The position numbers were made by a program, and so were the translations under genes. Shown here piece after piece: positions 52,260 to 63,952 of a stretch of 64,000 bases of DNA. The notes under the pieces are model-generated. The model saw only the letters and a program-made list of their open reading frames with translations, was not told where the DNA came from and searched no databases. Origin of the DNA: Methylophaga marina (GTDB lineage: Bacteria > Pseudomonadota > Gammaproteobacteria > Nitrosococcales > Methylophagaceae); the NCBI RefSeq assembly GCF_030296755.1, contig NZ_AP027741.1, positions 124,001-188,000 on the forward strand, read 5' to 3'. The first letter of the stretch is position 1; each line of letters opens with the position of its first letter.

Positions 52260-53201
52260 TTATGCATCAACACCGTGACCACTTAATGTATGCAGTTTCG
52301 ACACAGCCAGTGAAGCAGCTGCGGTTCGGGTTTCAACACCAAGTTTCACAAAGACATGTTCCATATGTTTATTCACTGTACGAGGGCTGGTACCCAAGAT
52401 TTCACCAATACTTTTATCGGTTTTACCCAATATGACCCAATGCAACACTTCTGCTTCACGTTTAGTCAGATTAAACACCGCTTTTAGAGCTTCAACCTGC
52501 GCTGCTTCAGACTCTTCACGTAACAAAATAAGCCATTGTTCCTCATTACGGATATCTGCCGGCGTAAAAATTAAGCGTCCAGTAGGATGATTAATCATCA
52601 GTGGTCTTAAACGCTTTTTGCCGCCCTCACTTAGTTGCTGAATCCATTGTTGCAGTTGTTCAGCATGTTTACCTTCATCACTTTTATCATTGAGGTATTT
52701 ATCGACCAAATCACGAGCGAGCGGGGTTTGCCAGATGATTTTATCGGTGCCGGGCAGTACCGCAATCGCCGCCTGACCAAAAGCATCCAGCGCACCTTGG
52801 GTATGACTCATCATTCTTGAGTTTTTGAGATGGGTATTTAAGCGAGCAATGACTTCTATCGGGCTTAAAGGTTTGGTGACGTAATCAATACCGCCGGCAG
52901 AAAATCCGGCAACCACATCTTCTGACTCCGTTAATCCGGTCATGAAGATCACCGGTATATGACGTGTATTAATATCCTGTTTCAATCGACGACACACATC
53001 AAAGCCACCCAGCTCAGGCATCACCGCATCCAGTAACACAATATCCGGGTAGGCTTCATTACAAATACGAATCGCATCATTGCCATTATTTGCCACCAGT
53101 ACGGTGTAACCCGACTCGACAAGAGAAGCATGTAAAAGTGCTAATGTTTCAGGCGCATCATCGACCACTAGTACCACAGCATTTTGATTCGCTTCAGTCA
53201 T
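52260..53201 (-). CDS. Response regulator with LuxR-type DNA-binding domain
   Basis: The 313-residue protein has an N-terminal receiver (VVDDAPETL, DIVLLDAVMPELGGF with the phospho-accepting Asp, FMTGLTESE, YVTKPLSP), a middle PAS-like part (about 140-230) and a C-terminal LuxR helix-turn-helix (TKREAEVLHWVILGKTDKSI). It overlaps the end of the hybrid kinase gene by eight bases and is surely its partner. Likely targets, by position, are the urea-use genes upstream or the kinase operon itself. No further gene follows for more than 200 bases. Confidence 0.92.
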   Translation of the reverse strand: MTEANQNAVVLVVDDAPETLALLHASLVESGYTVLVANNGNDAIRICNEAYPDIVLLDAVMPELGGFDVCRRLKQDINTRHIPVIFMTGLTESEDVVAGFSAGGIDYVTKPLSPIEVIARLNTHLKNSRMMSHTQGALDAFGQAAIAVLPGTDKIIWQTPLARDLVDKYLNDKSDEGKHAEQLQQWIQQLSEGGKKRLRPLMINHPTGRLIFTPADIRNEEQWLILLREESEAAQVEALKAVFNLTKREAEVLHWVILGKTDKSIGEILGTSPRTVNKHMEHVFVKLGVETRTAAASLAVSKLHTLSGHGVDA

Positions 53202-56200
53202 TTTGCAGTTTCTCTTTAATAAATTGTTTCATATTCTCCAATTGAAATGTTTCTGCCATTTGACGCATTTCATTAATAAATGATTGACTCGCCATCCCTT
53301 GTGATTCGAGCTCATCAATGATTTCTCTCACCCCCATAATGTAGCCCAAATCCAGCATTTCAAGCAGTGATTCTAATACATGTGTTTCAGGGATTATCTT
53401 CTCACTATCAATAGACTCATCTGTTTCAGGCACTGTCTCGTCGGCCTGAATCCATTCTAAATGGAGCCTCTCACCAATCCAATTAATCAGCTCCATCAAA
53501 TTGACAGGTTTAAGGACAAAATCACTCGGTAAGATACCCGATGAATTTTCCAAGTTCCGGTCAAACGCATTGGCAGAAATAATACAGATATGCACATCAG
53601 ACTGATGCACATTTCGAATCAGATGACAGGTTTCCCAACCATCCATTTCAGGCATCGCCAGATCCATGAAAATGATATCGGGTTTAAAATCAGGGTAGAT
53701 ACGTAAACACTCGGGGCCTGACGCTGCCTCTTTGACTTCAAAGCCTAATGGCGTCAATACATTCATCAACAACTCTCTGTCGATGGGTTCATTATCAACA
53801 ACCAGTAATTTACGACGTGGCCCTTTGTAACCGACAGGCATACGCATTGCCAGCGAAGGTAATGCTTCATCAAGACGCACAGTTGGTAAAAATAAGCGAA
53901 TGTAAAAGGTGGTCCCCTCACCCACTTTGCTTTCCAAATCCAATACACCGCCCATCAATTGAGTCAGTAATTTACAAATGGTCAAGCCCAGTCCCGTGCC
54001 ACCAACCCCCGTTGCGGTATTGCCTCTGACAAAAGGCTGAAAAATATTTTCAATATCTTTTTCATCAATGCCGGGCCCCGTATCTGCCACCTCAATGGAT
54101 AAGAATTCACGTGCATAACTAAAGTGAATATCGATACCGCCTTCGCGAGTATATTTGACGGCATTACCGATAATATTAATCAGAATCTGGCTGAGGCGTT
54201 TATGGTCGGCTCGCACAACCGGAGGTAAGTCATCAGGTATGGTGTAATGAAATCGTAAGCCTTTATTCTTAGCCTGAATTTCAAACATACTGACGATTTG
54301 CTGAATATATTCGGGAAAGCGTAAGGATTTAATATCAAACTGCAACTTACCACTTTCAATTCGGGCAATATCCAAGGTGCCCTCAATTAATGACAATAAG
54401 TGTTCACCACTGCGTAAAATCACTTTAGTGGCATGTTTATTATTGCCAACGATATCGTCATTATTATCCAGTAACTGTGCATAACCAAGAATGCTATTGA
54501 GTGGTGTGCGTAACTCATGACTAATGCCGGTAATATAACGGCTCTTCGCCTGATTCGCCTGCTCTGCTACGACTCGTGCTTGTTGTAATTCAGCATCGGT
54601 TTGTTTATGCAGAATGATTTCACGCTGTAATAAATTATTTTGGTTGTTCGATTCCTGCTGAGCCACATTCCGGCTTTGTGAGGTCAATACCAGCCACCAC
54701 ACAATAATGCCGCTCACTAAGACCAGTGTCGAAAATGCTTTGATAAAGCCAAGCTGTATCGCTGGCATGATATGCGCTGAGTATTCTGTGACGGTCAGGG
54801 AAATATGGACATAGATAAGACCGAAAATAGACGCCAGAATCAATACCGTCAAAGACATCAATAATAAATAGTGCCCAACACCGCTATGAATATTGCCTGA
54901 CCAGGCTTTCGGTAATACTTTGCAGATGATGTTTTCCCACTGTGAGGTCAAGCGCCCATGTGGTTTACAAGCATCATTACATCGGGCATCCAAACAGCAG
55001 CATAAAGAACAGATTGGCCCCTGATAGGCTGGGCAATAAGCCACATCTTGTATTTCATAGTCACGCCCACAAATACTGCATGTTTCCTTGGTTTTACTCG
55101 GGTGAAAGGTAAAAGGTTGGCGGGCAAGATAGTATTTACCCTTGGTATACCAAGCAATTAAAGGTGAAGCGACTAAAGCCGTGAACATAGCAATAAAGGA
55201 TGAAAATGCCTGCGCCTCTAAACCAAACACACCCAAAAAGGCAGTGACGGAGATCAGTGATGCTATACCCATCGCCCCTACACCAACAGGATTGATGTCG
55301 TATAAATAGGCTCGACGGAATTCGACGCCCTTGGGACTCAATCCTAAAGGTTTATTAATCACCAGATCGGCTACCACTGCTGTAATCCAGGAAATTGCTA
55401 TATTGGAATACAACCCCAGAATTTGCTCGAGCGCCTGAAACACATCAAGTAACATGAGCATAGTAGCTATCAGTACATTGAATAATAGCCAGACAACCCG
55501 TCCAGGGTGACTATGCGTCAGGCGGGCAAAAAAGTTAGACCAAGCCAAAGAGCCGGCATAGGCATTGGTAATATTAATTTTAATTTGTGACAGCACCACA
55601 AAAAAGACGGTGACCGCCAATAACACATCGGTATTAGCAAACACATAGCTAAACCCCACGTAGTACATATGGGTAGGATTAATGGCTTCTTCGATACTCA
55701 TCCCTGCCATCAGGGCGAGATAGGCCAATAAGGCGCCAATAAACATTTTGGCCATGCCCATTGAAATCCAGCCTGGGCCTGCCATTAACACACCCAGATG
55801 CCATTGGAAGGAGTTCTTTTTTGTCCGTTCCGGCATAAACCGCAAGAAGTCGACCTGCTCCCCGACTTGTGGAATTAATGCCATACCGATAGCGACAGCG
55901 GTACCAAACATATAAATATTAAAGTCACTGTCATATCCGGATTCACCGGCAAAGTTCATCAAACCAGAAAAGGCATCAGGTTGCTTTATAAAGATAAATA
56001 CCAACGGCAAAATCATCATAAACAGCCATAAAGGCTGAGTGAGCATTTGGATACGACTGATTAAAGTGACGCCATGTGTGACGAGGGGGATCACAACCAC
56101 AGCACAGATGAGATAACTGACATAGAGCGGGATGGTGAAATACAAACTCAAGGCATAGGCCATGATCACCGCTTCGAGAGCAAATAATATGAAGGTGAAG

Positions 56201-56655
56201 GTGGCATAGACAAAAGATGAAATCGTCGAACCGATATACCCAAAACCAGCGCCACGCGTCAGCAAGTCCATATCCAGACCATATTTAGCGGCGTAATGAC
56301 TGATCGGTAAGCTGGTTAAGAAAATAATTAAACTAACGGTTAATATTGCCCAAAAAGCATTGGTAAAGCCATAGTTGACGGCAATAGTACCGCCGATAGC
56401 TTCTAGAACCAGAAACGATATCGCCCCCAACGCAGTATTTGAGACACGAAAAATGGGCCATTTTCGGAACGAATTTGGCGTAAACCTTAAGGCATAATCT
56501 TCCAGAGTCTCGTTAGCTACCCAGGTATTGTAATCACGCCGTATTTTAACAATACGTTGTGGTGCTTCATTCTCAGCAGAAGGAGTGATGGCATCATTCG
56601 GTGTCAAATTCATATCCTGACGTTGGGAAGATGCTTTTGCCTGTCCGTTAAACAA
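53194..56655 (-). CDS. Hybrid histidine kinase with N-terminal NCS1 permease-like domain
   Basis: The 1153-residue protein starts with a cytosine/purine/hydantoin (NCS1) permease-like domain of about 12 helices (about 35-500; motifs GAISFLVLEAIGGTIAVNYG and PQVGEQVDFLRFMPERTKK). A Cys-rich putative zinc module follows (CSICGRDY, CSLCCCLDARCNDACKP, about 525-565), then two more membrane helices, a HisKA domain (GISHELRTPLNS, about 700), HATPase_c (NIIGNAVKYTREGG, GGTGLGLTICK), a receiver (IIFMDLAMPEMDGW) and a helical tail. It probably senses a nitrogen compound by binding or transport and signals to the response regulator behind it. It lies directly after the urease block on the same strand. 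Confidence 0.92.
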   Translation of the reverse strand: MFNGQAKASSQRQDMNLTPNDAITPSAENEAPQRIVKIRRDYNTWVANETLEDYALRFTPNSFRKWPIFRVSNTALGAISFLVLEAIGGTIAVNYGFTNAFWAILTVSLIIFLTSLPISHYAAKYGLDMDLLTRGAGFGYIGSTISSFVYATFTFILFALEAVIMAYALSLYFTIPLYVSYLICAVVVIPLVTHGVTLISRIQMLTQPLWLFMMILPLVFIFIKQPDAFSGLMNFAGESGYDSDFNIYMFGTAVAIGMALIPQVGEQVDFLRFMPERTKKNSFQWHLGVLMAGPGWISMGMAKMFIGALLAYLALMAGMSIEEAINPTHMYYVGFSYVFANTDVLLAVTVFFVVLSQIKINITNAYAGSLAWSNFFARLTHSHPGRVVWLLFNVLIATMLMLLDVFQALEQILGLYSNIAISWITAVVADLVINKPLGLSPKGVEFRRAYLYDINPVGVGAMGIASLISVTAFLGVFGLEAQAFSSFIAMFTALVASPLIAWYTKGKYYLARQPFTFHPSKTKETCSICGRDYEIQDVAYCPAYQGPICSLCCCLDARCNDACKPHGRLTSQWENIICKVLPKAWSGNIHSGVGHYLLLMSLTVLILASIFGLIYVHISLTVTEYSAHIMPAIQLGFIKAFSTLVLVSGIIVWWLVLTSQSRNVAQQESNNQNNLLQREIILHKQTDAELQQARVVAEQANQAKSRYITGISHELRTPLNSILGYAQLLDNNDDIVGNNKHATKVILRSGEHLLSLIEGTLDIARIESGKLQFDIKSLRFPEYIQQIVSMFEIQAKNKGLRFHYTIPDDLPPVVRADHKRLSQILINIIGNAVKYTREGGIDIHFSYAREFLSIEVADTGPGIDEKDIENIFQPFVRGNTATGVGGTGLGLTICKLLTQLMGGVLDLESKVGEGTTFYIRLFLPTVRLDEALPSLAMRMPVGYKGPRRKLLVVDNEPIDRELLMNVLTPLGFEVKEAASGPECLRIYPDFKPDIIFMDLAMPEMDGWETCHLIRNVHQSDVHICIISANAFDRNLENSSGILPSDFVLKPVNLMELINWIGERLHLEWIQADETVPETDESIDSEKIIPETHVLESLLEMLDLGYIMGVREIIDELESQGMASQSFINEMRQMAETFQLENMKQFIKEKLQND

Positions 56656-56714: not shown

Positions 56715-56732
56715 CTACGTAATTCTACGTAG
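56715..56732. promoter_or_regulatory. Inverted repeat before the permease-kinase gene
   Basis: CTACGTA and TACGTAG form seven-base arms around ATTC, 60 bases before the kinase start. LuxR/NarL-type regulators often bind such sites, so autoregulation by the adjacent response regulator is possible. Confidence 0.45.
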
Positions 56733-56733
56733 G

Positions 56734-56761
56734 TAAAAAAACGTCCTGACAATGTCAGGAC
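56734..56761 (-). terminator. Rho-independent terminator after hupE
   Basis: On the minus strand GTCCTGACA and TGTCAGGAC pair, followed by G and seven T. It closes the urea transport and urease transcription unit 30 bases past the hupE stop. Confidence 0.9.
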
Positions 56762-56791: not shown

Positions 56792-57361
56792 TTAAGCTAT
56801 TAGGAAAAAGGCGCCTGCCACGGCTAATACAGATATTAGCAGGCTTTGTAGATACTGGCCTATACGATCTTTCTGACGGCCCAACAAGAAACCTGTAGCT
56901 AACAAACCGGCTGTTGTCAGTGTTAACCCCAGAATAGCCATAAAGCCATGCTCGGCCAGGACTAATTCTTGTCCATGCACAAAACCATGCATCAAACCAA
57001 ACATACTTGTCAGCATCAGTTGCCATAACGCACTGATTCTGGCACTCAAGAAGAGAATGAGCCCCATTGCCAGCACACTCACAGCTATACCTAGCTCAAC
57101 CATACTAGACGTAGTCATGAAGGCCCCCATCGTCAGGCCGATCAATAGAAAGATGATAAATAAGGTCGGTATTTGAAAGCGATTTTCAGTGGGTGCACGT
57201 GCTGCCCAGAACCCGATTGCTAACATCACTAATAAATGATCTAAACCGGTTAACGGATGCAAAAACCCACTCATAAACCCGACTGCGTCATGGCCTGGGT
57301 GTGCCATCGCCGTCAACGGAAATCCGACTAATGCCATTAAAATTAAAAGGCTTTTTTTCAT
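56792..57361 (-). CDS. ureJ: HupE/UreJ-family nickel transport protein
   Basis: The start ATG at 57361 has AGGA seven bases upstream and gives 189 residues. A signal peptide (MKKSLLILMALVGFPLTAMA) is followed by HPGHD and GFLHPLTGLDHLLVMLAIG, the His-rich family signature, and several membrane helices with GLMHGFVHGQE. HupE/UreJ proteins supply nickel to hydrogenase or urease. It is the last gene of the urease operon, 21 bases after ureG, which fixes urease as the client. Confidence 0.9.
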   Translation of the reverse strand: MKKSLLILMALVGFPLTAMAHPGHDAVGFMSGFLHPLTGLDHLLVMLAIGFWAARAPTENRFQIPTLFIIFLLIGLTMGAFMTTSSMVELGIAVSVLAMGLILFLSARISALWQLMLTSMFGLMHGFVHGQELVLAEHGFMAILGLTLTTAGLLATGFLLGRQKDRIGQYLQSLLISVLAVAGAFFLIA

Positions 57362-57382
57362 TATCAATTCCTCATCTAAAAA

Positions 57383-57991
57383 TTAGTGCAGCATTAAGCC
57401 TTGTTTTTCAATAAACAGGATAATGTCATCCAGACCTTGCTCATCTTTCAGGTTGGTAAAAAAGAACGGACGTTCCCCACGCATACGTTTGGCATCTTCA
57501 TCCATCACGTCTAAGGAAGCGCCTACCAGTGGCGCTAAGTCTGTTTTATTAATAATCAGCAAATCAGATTTGGTAATTCCCGGCCCACCTTTACGCGGTA
57601 TTTTTTCACCGGCTGATACGTCAATGACATATAAGGTCAAGTCGGAAAGCTCTGGACTAAAGGTGGCGGCTAAATTATCACCACCGCTTTCAATAAAGAC
57701 AATATCCAATGGCTCGAAACGTTTACTCAACTGTGCCACGGCTTCCAGATTCATCGACGCATCTTCACGGATCGCTGTATGCGGACAACCACCGGTTTCC
57801 ACACCAATAATCCGGTCTGCTGACAGGGCTTCATTTCGGGTTAGGAACTGTGCATCTTCTTTGGTATAAATATCATTAGTGACAACGGCTATGTTATAGG
57901 TATCACGCAGACGTTTACATAAAGCTAATGTTAATGCCGTTTTACCTGAGCCGACTGGCCCGCCGATCCCCACCCGTAATGGTTCTTTCAT
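57383..57991 (-). CDS. ureG: Urease accessory GTPase UreG
   Basis: The 202-residue protein has [13 protein letters not shown] (P-loop), the [15 protein letters not shown] segment, [18 protein letters not shown] with the Cys-Pro-His nickel site, [15 protein letters not shown] and [12 protein letters not shown] (guanine specificity). All are hallmarks of UreG, which delivers nickel to urease using GTP with UreE, UreF and UreD. Length is normal. It starts 12 bases after ureF. Confidence 0.97.
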
Positions 57992-58003
57992 TTATACCTC
58001 ACT

Positions 58004-58687
58004 TTAAGAACGGAATAATCTCGAATATTGTGTTTCATGCCGACAGCTGGCTATGCTCAATGCGGGACAGAAATTACTCATTTCATCATCAGCACATTGC
58101 ATAGCCTGTTCAATGACGACCGTAATATTTTCACTAACGGCAACCAGAATTTGTTGACCTGCCACTTGTCCTAATGGAATCGCTTTCATTGCCGCACTGA
58201 CCTGATTTTCAATCCATGACCAAGCATATACATGCAACGTTTCCGCCAATGATATTTGCCAGTTCACCGCCGTACCCGCATATACAGTAGGAAAACTGGG
58301 CTCATCAATGGCAGTGATCACATCTAATTTTGCTTGCGGCCAGGCATCTAAATCCTGTTGCAGACGTAATAAGGAATAGCCCATTTGTCTGGATTCAAGC
58401 CAGGTTTCAGCACTGTCTCTACCAGCCTTATAGAAGCTATCCCAATGTTGGATGGCTGATTCATCCATGTTTTGCCATGCCTCAAACAAACGTTTCATCA
58501 CTGGCAATTCAAATTGCGCATAATAGGTCAGCAATACATCAGATATCCAACGCTGTGCGGTTGGTTTATCCGTCACATCGCCCGATTCAATGGCCCATTC
58601 AAAGCCTTGAGAATAACTGTAGGCACCAATAGGTAAAGCTGGGCTGGCCAGTTGTAATAAGCGTGAAAATGCGGCTGTGGTTTTCAT
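58004..58687 (-). CDS. ureF: Urease accessory protein UreF
   Basis: The start at 58687 (MKTTAAFSRLLQLASPALP) gives 227 residues, one base after the ureE stop; a longer ORF in the same frame only reads through the His codons of ureE out of frame. LPIGAYSYSQGFEWAIESG is the UreF signature. The last residues (RHETQYSRLFRS) match the family's conserved C-terminus. UreF bridges UreD and UreG on the urease apoenzyme during nickel insertion. Confidence 0.95.
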   Translation of the reverse strand: MKTTAAFSRLLQLASPALPIGAYSYSQGFEWAIESGDVTDKPTAQRWISDVLLTYYAQFELPVMKRLFEAWQNMDESAIQHWDSFYKAGRDSAETWLESRQMGYSLLRLQQDLDAWPQAKLDVITAIDEPSFPTVYAGTAVNWQISLAETLHVYAWSWIENQVSAAMKAIPLGQVAGQQILVAVSENITVVIEQAMQCADDEMSNFCPALSIASCRHETQYSRLFRS

Positions 58688-58688
58688 G

Positions 58689-59180
58689 TTAATGATGGTG
58701 ATGATGTGAATGATGATCATGGTCGTGATCATCGTCATGATGATGGTGATGTCCACCGCCATAAGCGCCGGCCTCGGGTTCAAACGGCGCGTCGGTCTCT
58801 TCCACAGTCACACGTAAACCTAACAACATGTCTTTTAACACATAATCGCTTTCCAGCTTCAGCCAGCCATCACCAATTTCTAATGGCACATGGCGATTAC
58901 CTAAATGGTAGGCTGCCCGCATCAAATCATGTGCAGAATGGGTGGTGACAATCATGACTTTTTGATCAGCCGCTTGTACCTGAATAATAGAGCCATCATC
59001 CGCTTGCAAAATATCACCGCCGCGTAAGATTTCTCCACGTGGCATAAATATCGCCGCCTCACGACCTGAAGCCAGATTGACCCGGATACGACTTTTTTGA
59101 CGTAAATCAAAACTCATCGATACCATGTCATCAAACTCGCTGATGCCGTTATTGCTTAATTTTGTGTGTATTTCAAGCAT
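58689..59180 (-). CDS. ureE: Urease accessory nickel chaperone UreE
   Basis: The 163-residue protein has the UreE N-domain (DLRQKSRIRVNLASGREAAIF, LRGGDIL) and the metal-binding C-domain with AYHLGNRHVPLEIG, including the conserved GNRH His. The C-terminus is a His/Asp tail of about 20 residues (HHHHHDDDHDHDHHSHHHHH), which stores or collects nickel. It lies between ureC and ureF, with the usual tight spacing. Confidence 0.96.
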   Translation of the reverse strand: MLEIHTKLSNNGISEFDDMVSMSFDLRQKSRIRVNLASGREAAIFMPRGEILRGGDILQADDGSIIQVQAADQKVMIVTTHSAHDLMRAAYHLGNRHVPLEIGDGWLKLESDYVLKDMLLGLRVTVEETDAPFEPEAGAYGGGHHHHHDDDHDHDHHSHHHHH

Positions 59181-59189
59181 AGTCTTACT

Positions 59190-60907
59190 CTAAAAAAGGA
59201 AATAGCGTTGTGCCATAGGGAGTTCCGTAGCCGGATCACAAATCAGTAATTCACCATCAGCCAGCACTTGATACGTTTCAGGATCGACACTGATTTCCGG
59301 TGTGGCATCGTTTAGCACCATATTTTTTTTGGTCACTTGACGGCAGTTCTTCACGGCAACAAGTGGTTTGGATAAATTCAGTTTTTTCACCTCAGGATTA
59401 TCCATCGCGGCCTGAGAGACAAAGGTCAATGAGCTTTTCAGGCCCTTACCAAAACTGGCAAACATGGGGCGATAATGAACAGGTTGCGGTGTCGGAATAG
59501 AGGCATTGGGATCGCCCATAACGGCTGAGGCAATACTGCCACCTTTTAAGATCAAAGTCGGTTTTACCCCAAAAAAGCAGGTCGCCATAAAACGAGATCA
59601 GCAAACTTGCCCGGTTCTATTGAGCCAACAATATGGGAAATACCGTGAGTAATGGCCGGATTGATGGTGTACTTAGCGATATAACGTTTGACGCGAAAGT
59701 TATCGGTATTCTCAGCGCCATCTTTGGTATCTTCAGGCAAGGTGCCACGCTGGACTTTCATTTTATGTGCTGTTTGCCAGGTACGCATGATTACCTCACC
59801 AACCCGCCCCATCGCCTGTGAATCAGATGACATCATCGCAAAGGCGCCGGTGTCATGGAGAATATCTTCAGCAGCAATGGTTTCACGGCGAATTCTCGAC
59901 TCAGCAAACGCCACATCCTCAGCAATCGCAGGATCAAGATGATGACATACCATCAACATATCCAAATGCTCATCCAACGTATTCACCGTGAAAGGTCGGG
60001 TGGGATTCGTTGATGACGGTAAGACATTTTGTGAACTGATGGCTTTAATGATATCCGGAGCATGACCACCACCTGCACCCTCAGTATGAAACGTATGGAT
60101 AGTGCGATCTTTAAATGCCGCTAAGGTCGTTTCAACAAAACCTGACTCGTTCAAAGTGTCACTATGAATCGCCACCTGGACATCCATTTCTTCTGCCACA
60201 CTTAAACAGTTATCAATGGCGGCTGGCGTCGTACCCCAGTCCTCATGCAACTTCAGACCAATCACGCCAGCTTCGACTTGTTCACGCGCTGGTTCAGGTA
60301 AAGAGACATTACCTTTACCGAAAAAGCCCATATTCATTGGAAACGCTTCGGCCGCTTCCAGCATTCGATGAATATGCCAAGGTCCTGGCGTGCAGGTTGT
60401 GGCAAACGTGCCTGTGGCTGGTCCGGTGCCACCGCCTAACATCGTGGTGACACCTGAGGTGAGTGCTTCTTCAATTTGTTGTGGACAGATCCAATGAATA
60501 TGACTGTCAATGCCACCTGCCGTGAGAATCATACCTTCACCGGCAATAACCTCAGTACCGGCACCGATAGGAATAGTCACGTTCGGCTGAATATCTGGGT
60601 TACCCGCTTTACCGATTTGCCAGATATGGCCATCTTTTAACCCTACATCTGCTTTGATAATGCCAGTCACAGCATCAATAATCAGTGCATTAGTAATGAC
60701 CGTGTCAGCCACTTCGGCTGCAGACAGTTGTGATTGCCCCATGCCATCACGAATCACTTTACCACCACCGAATTTGACTTCTTCGCCATAGGTAGTGAGA
60801 TCTTTTTCAACCTCGATCCATAGCTCGGTATCGGCAAGACGAATTTTATCACCCACCGTTGGACCGAACATTTCAGCATAGGCCTGACGAGAAATTTTAA
60901 CGCTCAT
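59190..60907 (-). CDS. ureC: Urease alpha (catalytic) subunit UreC, interrupted by a -1 frameshift
   Basis: The first ORF (60907-59564) carries the active site: HIHWICPQQ, the Lys to be carbamylated in [23 protein letters not shown] and MVCHHLDP. It ends early at [10 protein letters not shown] and a stop. The second ORF (ending 59190) continues with [20 protein letters not shown] and finishes MAQRYFLF. A run of six T on this strand (59571-59576) needs a seventh to read PAFFGVKP; the joined protein then has 572 residues, as normal for UreC. It hydrolyses urea with two nickel ions. As the rest of the operon is intact, a sequencing error is more likely than loss of urease. Confidence 0.93.
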
Positions 60908-61212
60908 GACAAGGCTCCCATGACTTTACCCGCAAACCCGTATACTGTTTGGGCACCTGCCAGTTTAACCAGCTCAATACTACGCATTTGACCTGGTTCA
61001 AACCGAACAGCCGTGCCAGCTGTTATATTCAGACGGAAGCCATAGGCCTGATCGCGGTCAAACAACAAGGCATCATTGACTTCATAAAAATGATAGTGCG
61101 AACCGACCTGGACTGGACGATCACCTGAATTGGAAACATCAATGAGTTTGGTCTCACGCTGAACATTCAGCTCAATATCACCATTTGCAAAACGCATTTC
61201 ACCTGGAATCAT
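60904..61212 (-). CDS. ureB: Urease beta subunit UreB
   Basis: The ATG at 61212 (AGG eight bases upstream) gives 102 residues, beginning [39 protein letters not shown] and [13 protein letters not shown] are clear UreB signatures. It overlaps ureC by four bases (ATGA). UreB is structural and packs against the UreC active-site subunit. Confidence 0.97.
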
Positions 61213-61222
61213 CTTTGTCACC

Positions 61223-61525
61223 TCACACTATGGGGTCGTGTACAGTAATTAATTTGGTGCCATCAGGGAACGTGGCTTCCACTTGTATTTCGGTGACCAT
61301 TTCCGCAATGCCATCCATCACATCTTCACGTGTCAGTAAGGTCGTGCCATAACTCATCAGGTCACTGACACTTCGCCCGTCCCTGGCCCCTTCCATAATC
61401 GCTGCGGTGATATAAGCCACCGCTTCCGGATAATTTAATTTCACACCACGGTCTTTACGACGTTCTGCTAATAATGCAGCTGTAAAAATCAGTAACTTAT
61501 CTTTTTCTCTTGGCGTTAAATCCAT
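61223..61525 (-). CDS. ureA: Urease gamma subunit UreA
   Basis: The ATG at 61525 with AGGA seven bases upstream gives exactly 100 residues, the standard length, beginning [44 protein letters not shown] and [14 protein letters not shown] are diagnostic for UreA. It lies 19 bases after ureD and ten before ureB. Confidence 0.97.
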
Positions 61526-61544
61526 TGTCACATCCTATAATTAA

Positions 61545-62405
61545 TCAGGTTGCCCAAATACGTGGGCGTACAGCGCGTGAGTTTGCATACCATGGCCGCA
61601 GACAAGACCATAATTGTTCAAAATACTGTCGTGCTTCTTGTGCACAATTGCCGATATAGCGTGCTGTAAAGACTTCAGGGAGTGCGGAAACCCCATACTG
61701 CGCTACAGAGTTGAGTGTGACGTGTCGGCATTGCTCCATCACACTATCCGGGATATGACCGGCGGTGACCACAAAACTACCAAACACGGGAAAACCGCGT
61801 AATCCAGCTATCGATGTCAGCATAAGACTGTCCGGCTTAAATACCGCGTTCTCTTGCCATATCAAACGATCGTCACGCTTTATCTGCAACACTTGTTGGT
61901 AACGCCCATGTTGCCAGTGTTCGCCACTGGCCTGTCGTCCAAGACAACTGATATCCCATCCCGCAAAATGCGCATTTTGGCTCAATTCGACCTGTGTTTT
62001 CAGCGTGACATCAGCACCATCAAACACAATATTTTCCTGGGGAAACCACTCGAGAAGACTGTCATCGTGCTGCTCAATAGTCACGGTTTGACTGGCTTGT
62101 CGTCCAGCCGACTTATACCACTTGGTCGCACCAGGCGTCGTGATCAAACTCTTTGCAGAAGTTGCCAGCTCAAACAGAAGCTGCAGACGGTCGCCACCCG
62201 CAACACCACCTGGAGGATGAATAACTAATGCATGTGCCGGATTAGGCCCTTCGGGATAGAGACATTTTTGAATAGTTAAAGGACCAGAGTGGGCCTTTTT
62301 TGCCAGAATCGTCTTACCATTTCGTTCGATAAAACTTAATTGAAGACGAGCATCCCAGCCTGTCATTGCAGTATTTACTTGGGTTCTGTCTATCAATTGC
62401 GTCAC
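61545..62405 (-). CDS. ureD: Urease accessory protein UreD
   Basis: The GTG at 62405, with AGGA eight bases upstream, gives 286 residues, the usual UreD length; a longer ORF from 62453 lacks a good ribosome site. WDARLQLSFIERNGKTILA, HSGPLTIQKCLYPEG, HPPGGVAGGD and TPGATKWYKSAG are UreD features. UreD binds urease apoprotein and forms the nickel-insertion complex with UreF and UreG. It is the first urease gene, behind the urea ABC transporter. Confidence 0.93.
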   Translation of the reverse strand: MTQLIDRTQVNTAMTGWDARLQLSFIERNGKTILAKKAHSGPLTIQKCLYPEGPNPAHALVIHPPGGVAGGDRLQLLFELATSAKSLITTPGATKWYKSAGRQASQTVTIEQHDDSLLEWFPQENIVFDGADVTLKTQVELSQNAHFAGWDISCLGRQASGEHWQHGRYQQVLQIKRDDRLIWQENAVFKPDSLMLTSIAGLRGFPVFGSFVVTAGHIPDSVMEQCRHVTLNSVAQYGVSALPEVFTARYIGNCAQEARQYFEQLWSCLRPWYANSRAVRPRIWAT

Positions 62406-62446
62406 GCATTCTGTCCTGGTTTCATGCGATAAAAGATAACATGACA

Positions 62447-62485
62447 CCCCCACTCCCTATGCAAAAAAACATTTGGGAATGGGGG
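62447..62485 (-). other. Intercistronic stem-loop between urtE and ureD
   Basis: CCCCCATTCCC on the minus strand can pair with GGGAGTGGGGG (11 pairs, one G-T) around a 17-base loop that contains seven T. No T run follows the stem, so it looks more like an RNA processing or stability element than a terminator. Confidence 0.5.
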
Positions 62486-62492
62486 CTGCCGA

Positions 62493-63182
62493 TTACACTG
62501 TCAGGTATTGTTTAATCTTAGCTGCATCCACATTTTCACGCAGATCTTCATGAATTAAATTACCTTTTTCGATCACCATGATGCGATCAGCGATATCCAT
62601 AGTAAAGCTTAAAACCTGTTCTGATACGACAATGGTTATCTCACGCATTTGACGAATTTCATTTAAAACGCGGGCGATATCCTTAATGATAGACGGCTGA
62701 ATACCTTCCGTCGGTTCATCCAATAACAATACTTTAGGATTAGTCACCAACGCACGTGCTATCGCTAATTGCTGCTGCTGACCACCCGATAGATTACCGC
62801 CTTTACGATGACGCATTTCATGCAGCACAGGAAACAATGAAAAAATATCTTCCGGTATCGACTTCTGCTTTGATACCTGTAGACCTGTTTCAATATTTTC
62901 CTGAACGGTCAGATTAGGGAAAATCATTCGACCTTGGGGCACATAGGCAAGACCATTCGCCACACGTTTGTAGCTTTCCATGCCACTGAGATCTTGCCCT
63001 TCCAAATTCACTTTTGTCGACTGACTAGGCAAAATCCCCATTAAAGATTTAAATAAGGTGGTTTTACCCATGCCATTTCGGCCCATAATCGCCAATGTTT
63101 CATTTTTTTCAGCTTTAAAACTGATTTCATGAATGACTTCACTCTGGCCATAACTGACTTGCAGGTTTTCAACTTCGAACAT
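62493..63182 (-). CDS. urtE: Urea ABC transporter ATP-binding protein UrtE
   Basis: The 229-residue ABC ATPase has Walker A GRNGMGKTT, Q-loop VPQGRMIFPNLT, signature LSGGQQQQLAIARAL, Walker B LLLDEPTEGIQP and a His/Gln switch (VVSEQ). It belongs to the LivF-like branch of branched-chain amino-acid/urea importers. The ILPSQSTKVNLEGQDLS segment and position next to urtD and the urease genes identify it as UrtE. It powers high-affinity urea uptake. Confidence 0.93.
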   Translation of the reverse strand: MFEVENLQVSYGQSEVIHEISFKAEKNETLAIMGRNGMGKTTLFKSLMGILPSQSTKVNLEGQDLSGMESYKRVANGLAYVPQGRMIFPNLTVQENIETGLQVSKQKSIPEDIFSLFPVLHEMRHRKGGNLSGGQQQQLAIARALVTNPKVLLLDEPTEGIQPSIIKDIARVLNEIRQMREITIVVSEQVLSFTMDIADRIMVIEKGNLIHEDLRENVDAAKIKQYLTV

Positions 63183-63205
63183 GTTTTTATCTCCTCAATA
63201 CCTGA

Positions 63206-63952
63206 TTAATGGCCCAGATAGACTTCAATGACTTTTTCGTCATTTTGTACATTATCCATCGCACCTTCAGCCAGAATTTTCCCTTGATGTAATACCGTGA
63301 CCTTACGAGCAATTTTTTTCACAAATTCCATATCATGTTCAATCACAATCACTGAACGGTTTTGACAAATTCGGTTAAGTAACTCGGCTGTTTCGTCACG
63401 TTCCTTCGCACTCATGCCTGCCACTGGCTCATCCAGCATCAGTAGTTCAGGGTCCTGCATCAATAGCATGCCAATCTCTAACCATTGTTTTTGGCCGTGA
63501 CTGAGCACGGCCGCTTCTGTATCGAGCTCGTCCAGTAGTTGGATTTCTTCTGCTATTTGTAAAACAGTGTCACGAACTTTATCGGTCGATTTGAAAAATA
63601 AACTGCCAAATACGCCACGGCCTTCTGGATAAGAGACTTCCAGATTTTCATACACACTCAGGTTTTCGTAGATAGAGGGAGTTTGGAATTTTCGTCCGAC
63701 TCCTGTTCTGACGATTTCGTGTTCAGCTTGTTTAGTGAGTTCATGATTTTTGAATTTAATCGAGCCTGAACTCGCTTTTGTCTTGCCACAAATTAAGTCC
63801 AGCAAAGTGGTTTTACCGGCCCCATTAGGACCGATAATCACACGAAGTTCATTTTTGTCGATATACATATTCAATGTATCAACCGCTTTGAAGCCATCAA
63901 ATGAGACTGTCAGGTCTTCAATCGCTAACAGAAAATCAGTAGAGGTACTCAT
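63206..63952 (-). CDS. urtD: Urea ABC transporter ATP-binding protein UrtD
   Basis: The 248-residue LivG-like ATPase has Walker A GPNGAGKTTL, GVGRKFQTPSIYENLSVYENLE, an ABC signature region LSHGQKQWLEIGMLLMQ (the motif reads LSHGQ, typical of UrtD), Walker B LLMLDEPVAGMS and the switch His in VIVIEHDMEFV. It starts one base inside the urtC stop codon (TAATG), and urtE follows after 23 bases. Confidence 0.95.
   Translation of the reverse strand: MSTSTDFLLAIEDLTVSFDGFKAVDTLNMYIDKNELRVIIGPNGAGKTTLLDLICGKTKASSGSIKFKNHELTKQAEHEIVRTGVGRKFQTPSIYENLSVYENLEVSYPEGRGVFGSLFFKSTDKVRDTVLQIAEEIQLLDELDTEAAVLSHGQKQWLEIGMLLMQDPELLMLDEPVAGMSAKERDETAELLNRICQNRSVIVIEHDMEFVKKIARKVTVLHQGKILAEGAMDNVQNDEKVIEVYLGH

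Follow-up and report, generated by a model that had tools for sequence, protein, structure and literature searches.

Urea is a major nitrogen source, yet little is known of how bacteria perceive it at the cell membrane. UreR, an activator of urease genes, is a urea-responsive, one-component protein of the AraC type that acts in the cytoplasm. The system described here, a transporter-like hybrid histidine kinase and its LuxR-type partner regulator in Methylophaga marina, would share urea-dependent control of urease genes with UreR, but would be a membrane-embedded two-component system instead. The pair is found in a window of 64,000 nucleotides (contig NZ_AP027741.1, positions 124,001 to 188,000 of the forward strand), which is the whole stretch of DNA analyzed and whose numbering is used below for its features, and it lies directly behind an operon for urea transport and urease.

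Transporter-kinase fusions with a partner regulator are likewise used for small nutrients in the SLC5/STAC transceptor kinases (CbrA/CbrB, CrbS/CrbR and RpuS/RpuR). In the present case, however, the transporter domain is NCS1-like, the linker is a Cys-rich, zinc-ribbon-like module with two helices, and the predicted targets are urea and amide genes. The sensor would thus work like the SLC5/STAC kinases but is not one of them. In Ks-Amt5, too, a histidine kinase is joined to a domain that resembles a transporter for a nitrogen source (PMC5764959), but it is an ammonium sensor of the Amt/Rh fold from an anammox bacterium, whereas here the fold is predicted to be NCS1 and the ligand is probably urea or an amide. 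The transporters CodB and Mhp1 have the fold in common with the sensor, as well as D-x-x-R-F in transmembrane segment 6 (TM6) and a tyrosine in TM8. They differ in that the sensor has Lys and Ile in place of the threonines of the sodium site Na2, has not kept the ring-stacking aromatics, and is fused to a Cys module and a kinase. Finally, AmsSR of Acinetobacter baumannii (ABUW_2427/2426) is a hybrid kinase with 14 transmembrane segments and a LuxR-type regulator directly downstream (PMC10112286). A search of the open literature, within its limits, found no report of an NCS1-kinase fusion. We put the probability that the pair is a transporter-derived ("transceptor-type") two-component system for urea or short-chain amides at about 70%.

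Domain anatomy of the kinase and its regulator

The two genes and their domains are as follows.

52260 to 53201, minus strand: LuxR/NarL-type response regulator, 313 residues (receiver, residues 10-121; GerE, residues 244-299)
52305 to 52472, minus strand: GerE (LuxR-type) helix-turn-helix of the regulator, recognition helix SPRTVNKHMEHVF (PF00196, E 8.2e-16)
53194 to 56655, minus strand: hybrid sensor histidine kinase with predicted NCS1-fold transporter domain, 1153 residues, TTG start
53482 to 53805, minus strand: receiver domain of the kinase, Asp998 (PF00072, E 6.2e-19, residues 951-1058)
53887 to 54207, minus strand: HATPase_c (PF02518, E 9.2e-29, residues 817-923)
54349 to 54549, minus strand: HisKA, phospho-acceptor His713 (PF00512, E 7.7e-16, residues 703-769)
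54589 to 54879, minus strand: two long helices, residues 593-689 (from the secondary structure of the model, likely a transmembrane pair and a helix into HisKA)
54967 to 55089, minus strand: Cys-rich module, zinc-ribbon-like, residues 523-563 (C526, C529, C549 and C552 invariant)
55132 to 56508, minus strand: predicted NCS1-fold transmembrane domain, residues 50-508 (AlphaFold2 model against CodB and Mhp1; residue comparison)

The first-pass annotation of this DNA had proposed an NCS1-type permease domain, a Cys-rich putative zinc module, and kinase and receiver domains, in a gene that overlaps its LuxR-type partner. The catalytic part is borne out by Pfam, which finds HisKA, HATPase_c and the receiver with H713, the N and G boxes and D998 all intact, as well as a receiver and a GerE helix-turn-helix in the regulator. 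No Hpt domain was found in the kinase by the Pfam scan. The start of the regulator overlaps the stop of the kinase by 8 bases (53194-53201). The four cysteines, arranged as CxxC...CxxC, are invariant in alignments of 24 and of 42 sequences, and the module probably binds zinc. A tetraheme cytochrome match to the Cys tail was dismissed as a chance match of Cys-rich sequence. A scan for viral contigs found nothing.

The permease was recognized from its fold. The first ~500 residues of the kinase have no Pfam match, not even to PF02133 (NCS1), and sequence searches of Pfam, NCBIfam and the PDB left the N-terminal domain unnamed; fold comparison and stand-alone homologues identified it. In an AlphaFold2 model of residues 29-690, built from 42 sequences (predicted local distance difference test, pLDDT, 79), the best structural matches are NCS1 proteins: CodB, the closest solved structure, scores Z 35.4 and Mhp1 scores 27-29, with no other family above 25.8. 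Since CodB and Mhp1 outscore every other family, the earlier assignment appears right as to fold. An SLC5-type domain (sodium:solute symporter, SSS) is not indicated: SSS-type structures reach Z 24 at most, and no part of the kinase has a Pfam match to the sodium:solute symporter model. The linker also has no Pfam match and carries the Cys-rich module in the place of STAC, no direct STAC model having been run.

Stand-alone relatives that pass the PF02133 cut-off are 42-44% identical to the permease domain of the window. By the usual marks of NCS1 (TC 2.A.39, PF02133), the modeled domain has a LeuT-type fold nearest to NCS1 structures, and it lacks the Pfam family match, the W108/F204 aromatic pair of CodB and the Na2 residues. 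For these reasons we file it as a divergent, NCS1-like sensor branch and not as a classical nucleobase NCS1 protein. The permease-Cys unit is also found with other outputs, being fused to a PAS-GGDEF-EAL-like output, as read from sequence, in L063 (7849-11520) and to PAS-PAS-kinase-receiver in L064 (8023-11841), which suggests a portable sensor unit.

Gene neighborhood and a shared palindrome

The first-pass annotation had placed the kinase next to an urt-ure-hupE block on the same strand. This holds, with a terminator-like hairpin separating hupE from the kinase, and a palindrome lies between the hairpin and the kinase gene.

56716 to 56731, no strand: palindrome TACGTAATTCTACGTA, 7-2-7, predicted regulator site upstream of the kinase
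56743 to 56761, no strand: terminator-like hairpin between hupE and the kinase
56792 to 57367, minus strand: hupE/ureJ (PF04955, E 2.9e-41)
57383 to 62453, minus strand: ureG, ureF, ureE, ureC (frame broken), ureB, ureA, ureD
62493 to 63952, minus strand: urtE, urtD
genome position 194262-194277, outside the window: second predicted site, at the operon head

Beyond the end of the window the operon continues with urtC, urtB, urtA, fmdB, fmdA and a porin-like gene (so called for the character of its sequence; it has no Pfam match), the full order in this genome being porin-fmdA-fmdB-urtABCDE-ureDABCEFG-hupE, hairpin, kinase-regulator.

The same annotation had made its reading depend on this linkage recurring in other genomes, and it does recur. 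Relatives of the kinase are encoded in at least 569 candidate stretches of the species genome collection and, at E below 1e-90, in 52 of 398 sampled Pseudomonadota genomes, about an eighth. Of 80 named relatives, 64 are accompanied by urea or amide genes, taken as ureA/C, two or more urt genes, or fmdA no more than about 10 kb away. The partners are urtABCDE, urease, formamidase FmdA with FmdB, aliphatic amidase and nitrilase. The kinase lies behind ure on the same strand in Methylophaga and Methylotenera; in Comamonadaceae it diverges from ureA; in Pseudomonas, Achromobacter, Burkholderia, Roseomonas, Shinella and plasmids of Klebsiella it diverges from urtABCDE, to which fmdA may be added; and in Oxalobacteraceae and Thioclava the arrangement is convergent. 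With such differences between lineages, the linkage goes beyond the descent of a single arrangement. Klebsiella plasmids (342 matching records) can carry formamidase-urtABCDE together with the kinase (L189, 3897-13369); the kinase is not mentioned in a discussion of the CG307 urea transport cluster (PMC13060141).

The two transcription units share a palindrome. Nearly all members of the genus that hold the kinase have a 7-2-7 palindrome of the TACGTAA-NN-TTACGTA type upstream of it. The operon-head copy was first met as one of seven matches, each with one mismatch, to a pattern derived solely from the kinase promoters. The strict pattern TACGYNANNTNRCGTA, drawn from kinase promoters and the operon head, has a single match in the genome of 3.1 Mb, and this match lies at the head of the operon; the copy before the kinase of the window, TACGTAGAATTACGTA, is one base off. 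Among 24 genomes of the genus, 14 of 14 with the kinase have a match, as do 2 of 10 without it. A first motif, TACGNNNNNNTACGTAG with two mismatches allowed, was uninformative and was set aside. Outside the genus, the kinase is preceded by TACGTCA-NN-TGACGTA or a near form in Pseudomonas, Achromobacter, Bordetella, Burkholderia, Acinetobacter, Klebsiella plasmids, Roseomonas, Shinella and Methylovirgula, and the palindrome precedes the kinase gene and the urea/amide operon in alpha-, beta- and gammaproteobacteria. Placement is nearly exclusive: exact TACGTCANNTGACGTA occurs nine times in 57 kinase-bearing genomes, always at the kinase/urea cluster (eight times upstream of the kinase and once upstream of a urtA-ure-hupE-kinase operon), and a reversed control pattern occurs in none of these genomes.

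The site also varies with the regulator. Where the recognition helix reads RTV-x-KH, the palindrome precedes the kinase in 24 of 60 loci and is found elsewhere in the locus in 13 more; where it reads AT-x-KKH, none of 29 loci has it before the kinase (Fisher P 1.8e-5, with clades not independent and the AT-x-KKH set coming mainly from one clade and Thioclava). The motif matrix behind this comparison has a degree of circularity, with sites of the scanned loci among its members, and we place the weight on the genome-wide exact-pattern tests. Because helix and site vary together, the regulator can be tied to the palindrome, on which it would be expected to act.

That the kinase is a chance neighbor without a regulatory tie to the urea genes is strongly disfavored: the hairpin between hupE and the kinase and the relatives without linkage would suit it, but several independent arrangements, a shared site at both promoters and the helix-site covariation do not, and we reject it on the strength of the exact-site placement, the 64 linked relatives of 80 and that covariation. 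The conserved linkage, the palindrome at both expected promoters and the covariation make control of the urea genes by the pair well supported from sequence, so this part of the first-pass reading stands.

In one of the two genomes of the genus that have a match but no kinase (G012), the porin gene and its palindrome lie beside the truncated end of the regulator (L231, G012:C23, 9171-12004). The remnant is the last 128 residues, joined to the porin, and this layout points to a single deletion that removed, in one block, everything from fmdA through the kinase and into the regulator. In the window itself ureC (59190-60907, minus strand) is in two frames owing to a one-base difference in a T run and is intact in the same-species genome G784 and in other genus members; the break is either a sequencing error or a recent frameshift. 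The genome has a second, distinct ure/urt cluster at 2.42 Mb (G000:C1:2416213-2424823), away from the kinase and without a strict palindrome match.

Candidate ligand and coupling ion

The ligand class proposed by the first-pass annotation fared less well. It had taken the domain to sense a nucleobase, allantoin or hydantoin whose breakdown yields urea, as would be natural for an NCS1 fold, known NCS1 substrates being mostly such rings (PMC9379551). In CodB, W108 and F204 sandwich the ring of the substrate, and the pair is described as conserved throughout NCS1 (PMC9379551). In the sensor domain, L or F aligns with W108 and L with F204, and the ring-stacking pair is thus lost. No purine- or hydantoin-catabolic genes were seen in the annotated loci or among Pfam-scanned neighbors, where the partners are urt, ure, fmdA and amidases, and the NCS1 protein for metformin gives a precedent for a ring-free substrate (PMC13390362). 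A ring ligand is therefore quite improbable. The sensor domain has instead an invariant Q-x-G-E-Q-x-D, including E266 and Q267, at the TM6 break, which in CodB is the main substrate contact, and this motif would favor a small polar ligand. The genes that recur beside the kinase (for a urea ATP-binding cassette transporter, urease, formamidase and amidase) make urea or a short-chain amide itself a more likely ligand than a purine, pyrimidine, allantoin or hydantoin. Where formamidase is the sole partner, as in Methylovirgula, formamide or acetamide is as likely as urea.

Two genomes of the genus in which no urease alpha gene was found (loci L049 and L052) have retained the kinase in broken form, with a nonsense codon in G019 (a genome 85% complete) and a frameshift in G011; both keep urt, and fmdA is intact in L049. 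We count these lesions, the block deletion in G012 and the position of stand-alone relatives behind ureDABCEFG in favor of the urea/amide system.

The coupling ion is probably not sodium. The CodB sodium ligands T278 and T279 correspond to K359 and I360 here, K359 being invariant in the 24 and in the 42 aligned sequences, and a Na2 site made of Lys and Ile makes sodium coupling unlikely. CbrA shares a Lys at this position; its K196 occupies the Na2 site and is interpreted as a proton switch (PMC13022988). By analogy, K359 may be a proton switch too.

The fused domain could also be a working urea or amide importer as well as a sensor, the signal reporting transport flux. The domain is highly conserved and keeps the core of the fold together with CodB's R-Y pair (R216, Y285), stand-alone relatives occur in urease operons, and CbrA is reported to transport and to signal (PMC7096432; PMC13022988). 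The replaced Na2 site speaks against import, however, as does the dedicated urea transporter already present in many loci, and we consider this possible but clearly less probable than its opposite.

The stand-alone permeases cluster with support of 99-100 in a quick tree without a usable outgroup (its distant outgroup open reading frames were chosen by length only and are unreliable). They lie directly behind ureDABCEFG in Klebsiella and G317 and are divergent from the kinase in Acinetobacter and G301. Examples with a Cys tail are found in L190 (8944-10551), L236 (2263-3720), L183 (10159-11805) and L054 (9767-11446), and the Klebsiella relative is annotated "cytosine permease". Our broadest proposal is a widespread membrane sensor of urea and short amides with Na2 changed to Lys, possibly proton-gated, whose stand-alone sisters form an unrecognized class of urea permeases; it is tentative, and we hold it slightly less probable than not.

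AmsSR and the proposed mechanism

The urea- and amide-sensing system that we favor would operate as follows. Urea or a small amide such as formamide would bind to the NCS1-fold domain, and binding or transport would shift its conformation. The change would pass through the zinc-ribbon-like module and the two helices to the kinase, which would phosphorylate the LuxR-type regulator. A dimer of the regulator would then bind TACGTCA-NN-TGACGTA in two places, in front of its own kinase gene and at the head of the operon for porin, formamidase, urea transporter and urease, and would activate, rather than repress, both promoters.

In A. baumannii, a kinase-regulator pair (L183, 11962-16391) is 56% identical in the permease domain; a stand-alone NCS1-like permease gene diverges from the pair, with the palindrome lying between the two, and the 26 kb covered there hold no urea genes. 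Compared by description (14 transmembrane segments, here 12 + 2, and a LuxR-type regulator downstream), this pair fits AmsSR, so that AmsSR is probably a member of the group; it is reported only for energy metabolism, and the main text of PMC10112286 mentions no permease or NCS1 homology. The L183 record is chromosome-sized though filed as a plasmid.

Alternatively, the system might sense proton motive force or the general energy state, with the urea genes as one of several targets. The AmsSR promoter is induced by carbonyl cyanide m-chlorophenyl hydrazone (CCCP), the mutants are depolarized and acidified (PMC10112286), and the Lys found invariably at Na2 could act as a proton switch, a role that the CCCP response would fit. 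The exact site is hardly seen outside the urea/amide cluster, however, and the neighborhood is specific for urea and amides, so that we regard energy sensing as unlikely, if less so than a ring ligand.

Several observations nevertheless weigh against the urea/amide system. The AmsSR mutants show broad effects on energy metabolism, which is not obviously a urea phenotype (PMC10112286). About one-fifth of the relatives, many of them in Rhodocyclaceae, have no urea or amide gene within 10 kb; in some of these loci the palindrome stands at a distance of 7-8 kb, next to a UrtA-like gene in L087 and L093. The CodB residue comparison is a remote sequence alignment, and hhalign spans the first half only. 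The promoters of the kinase and of ure in Burkholderiales have the look of sigma54-dependent ones: in 33 of 33 loci the short gap between ureA and the kinase (within L089-L152) has sigma54-type -24/-12 sequences, where mononucleotide shuffles give 3.4, and these often stand on both strands, back to back. General nitrogen control is therefore likely to be layered on the urea-specific signal in that clade. A strong sigma54 site was sought before the kinase of the window and not found.

If the urea/amide system is right, a sensor, a regulator, a DNA site and a regulon would be predicted for about one in eight of the Pseudomonadota genomes sampled, including Klebsiella plasmids. Kinases with a transporter domain as their sensor would gain NCS1 as a third fold, AmsSR would have a predicted ligand class and predicted direct targets, and "cytosine permease" genes in urease operons would be misannotated. 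The kinase would then be an unusual, membrane-embedded sensor of urea.

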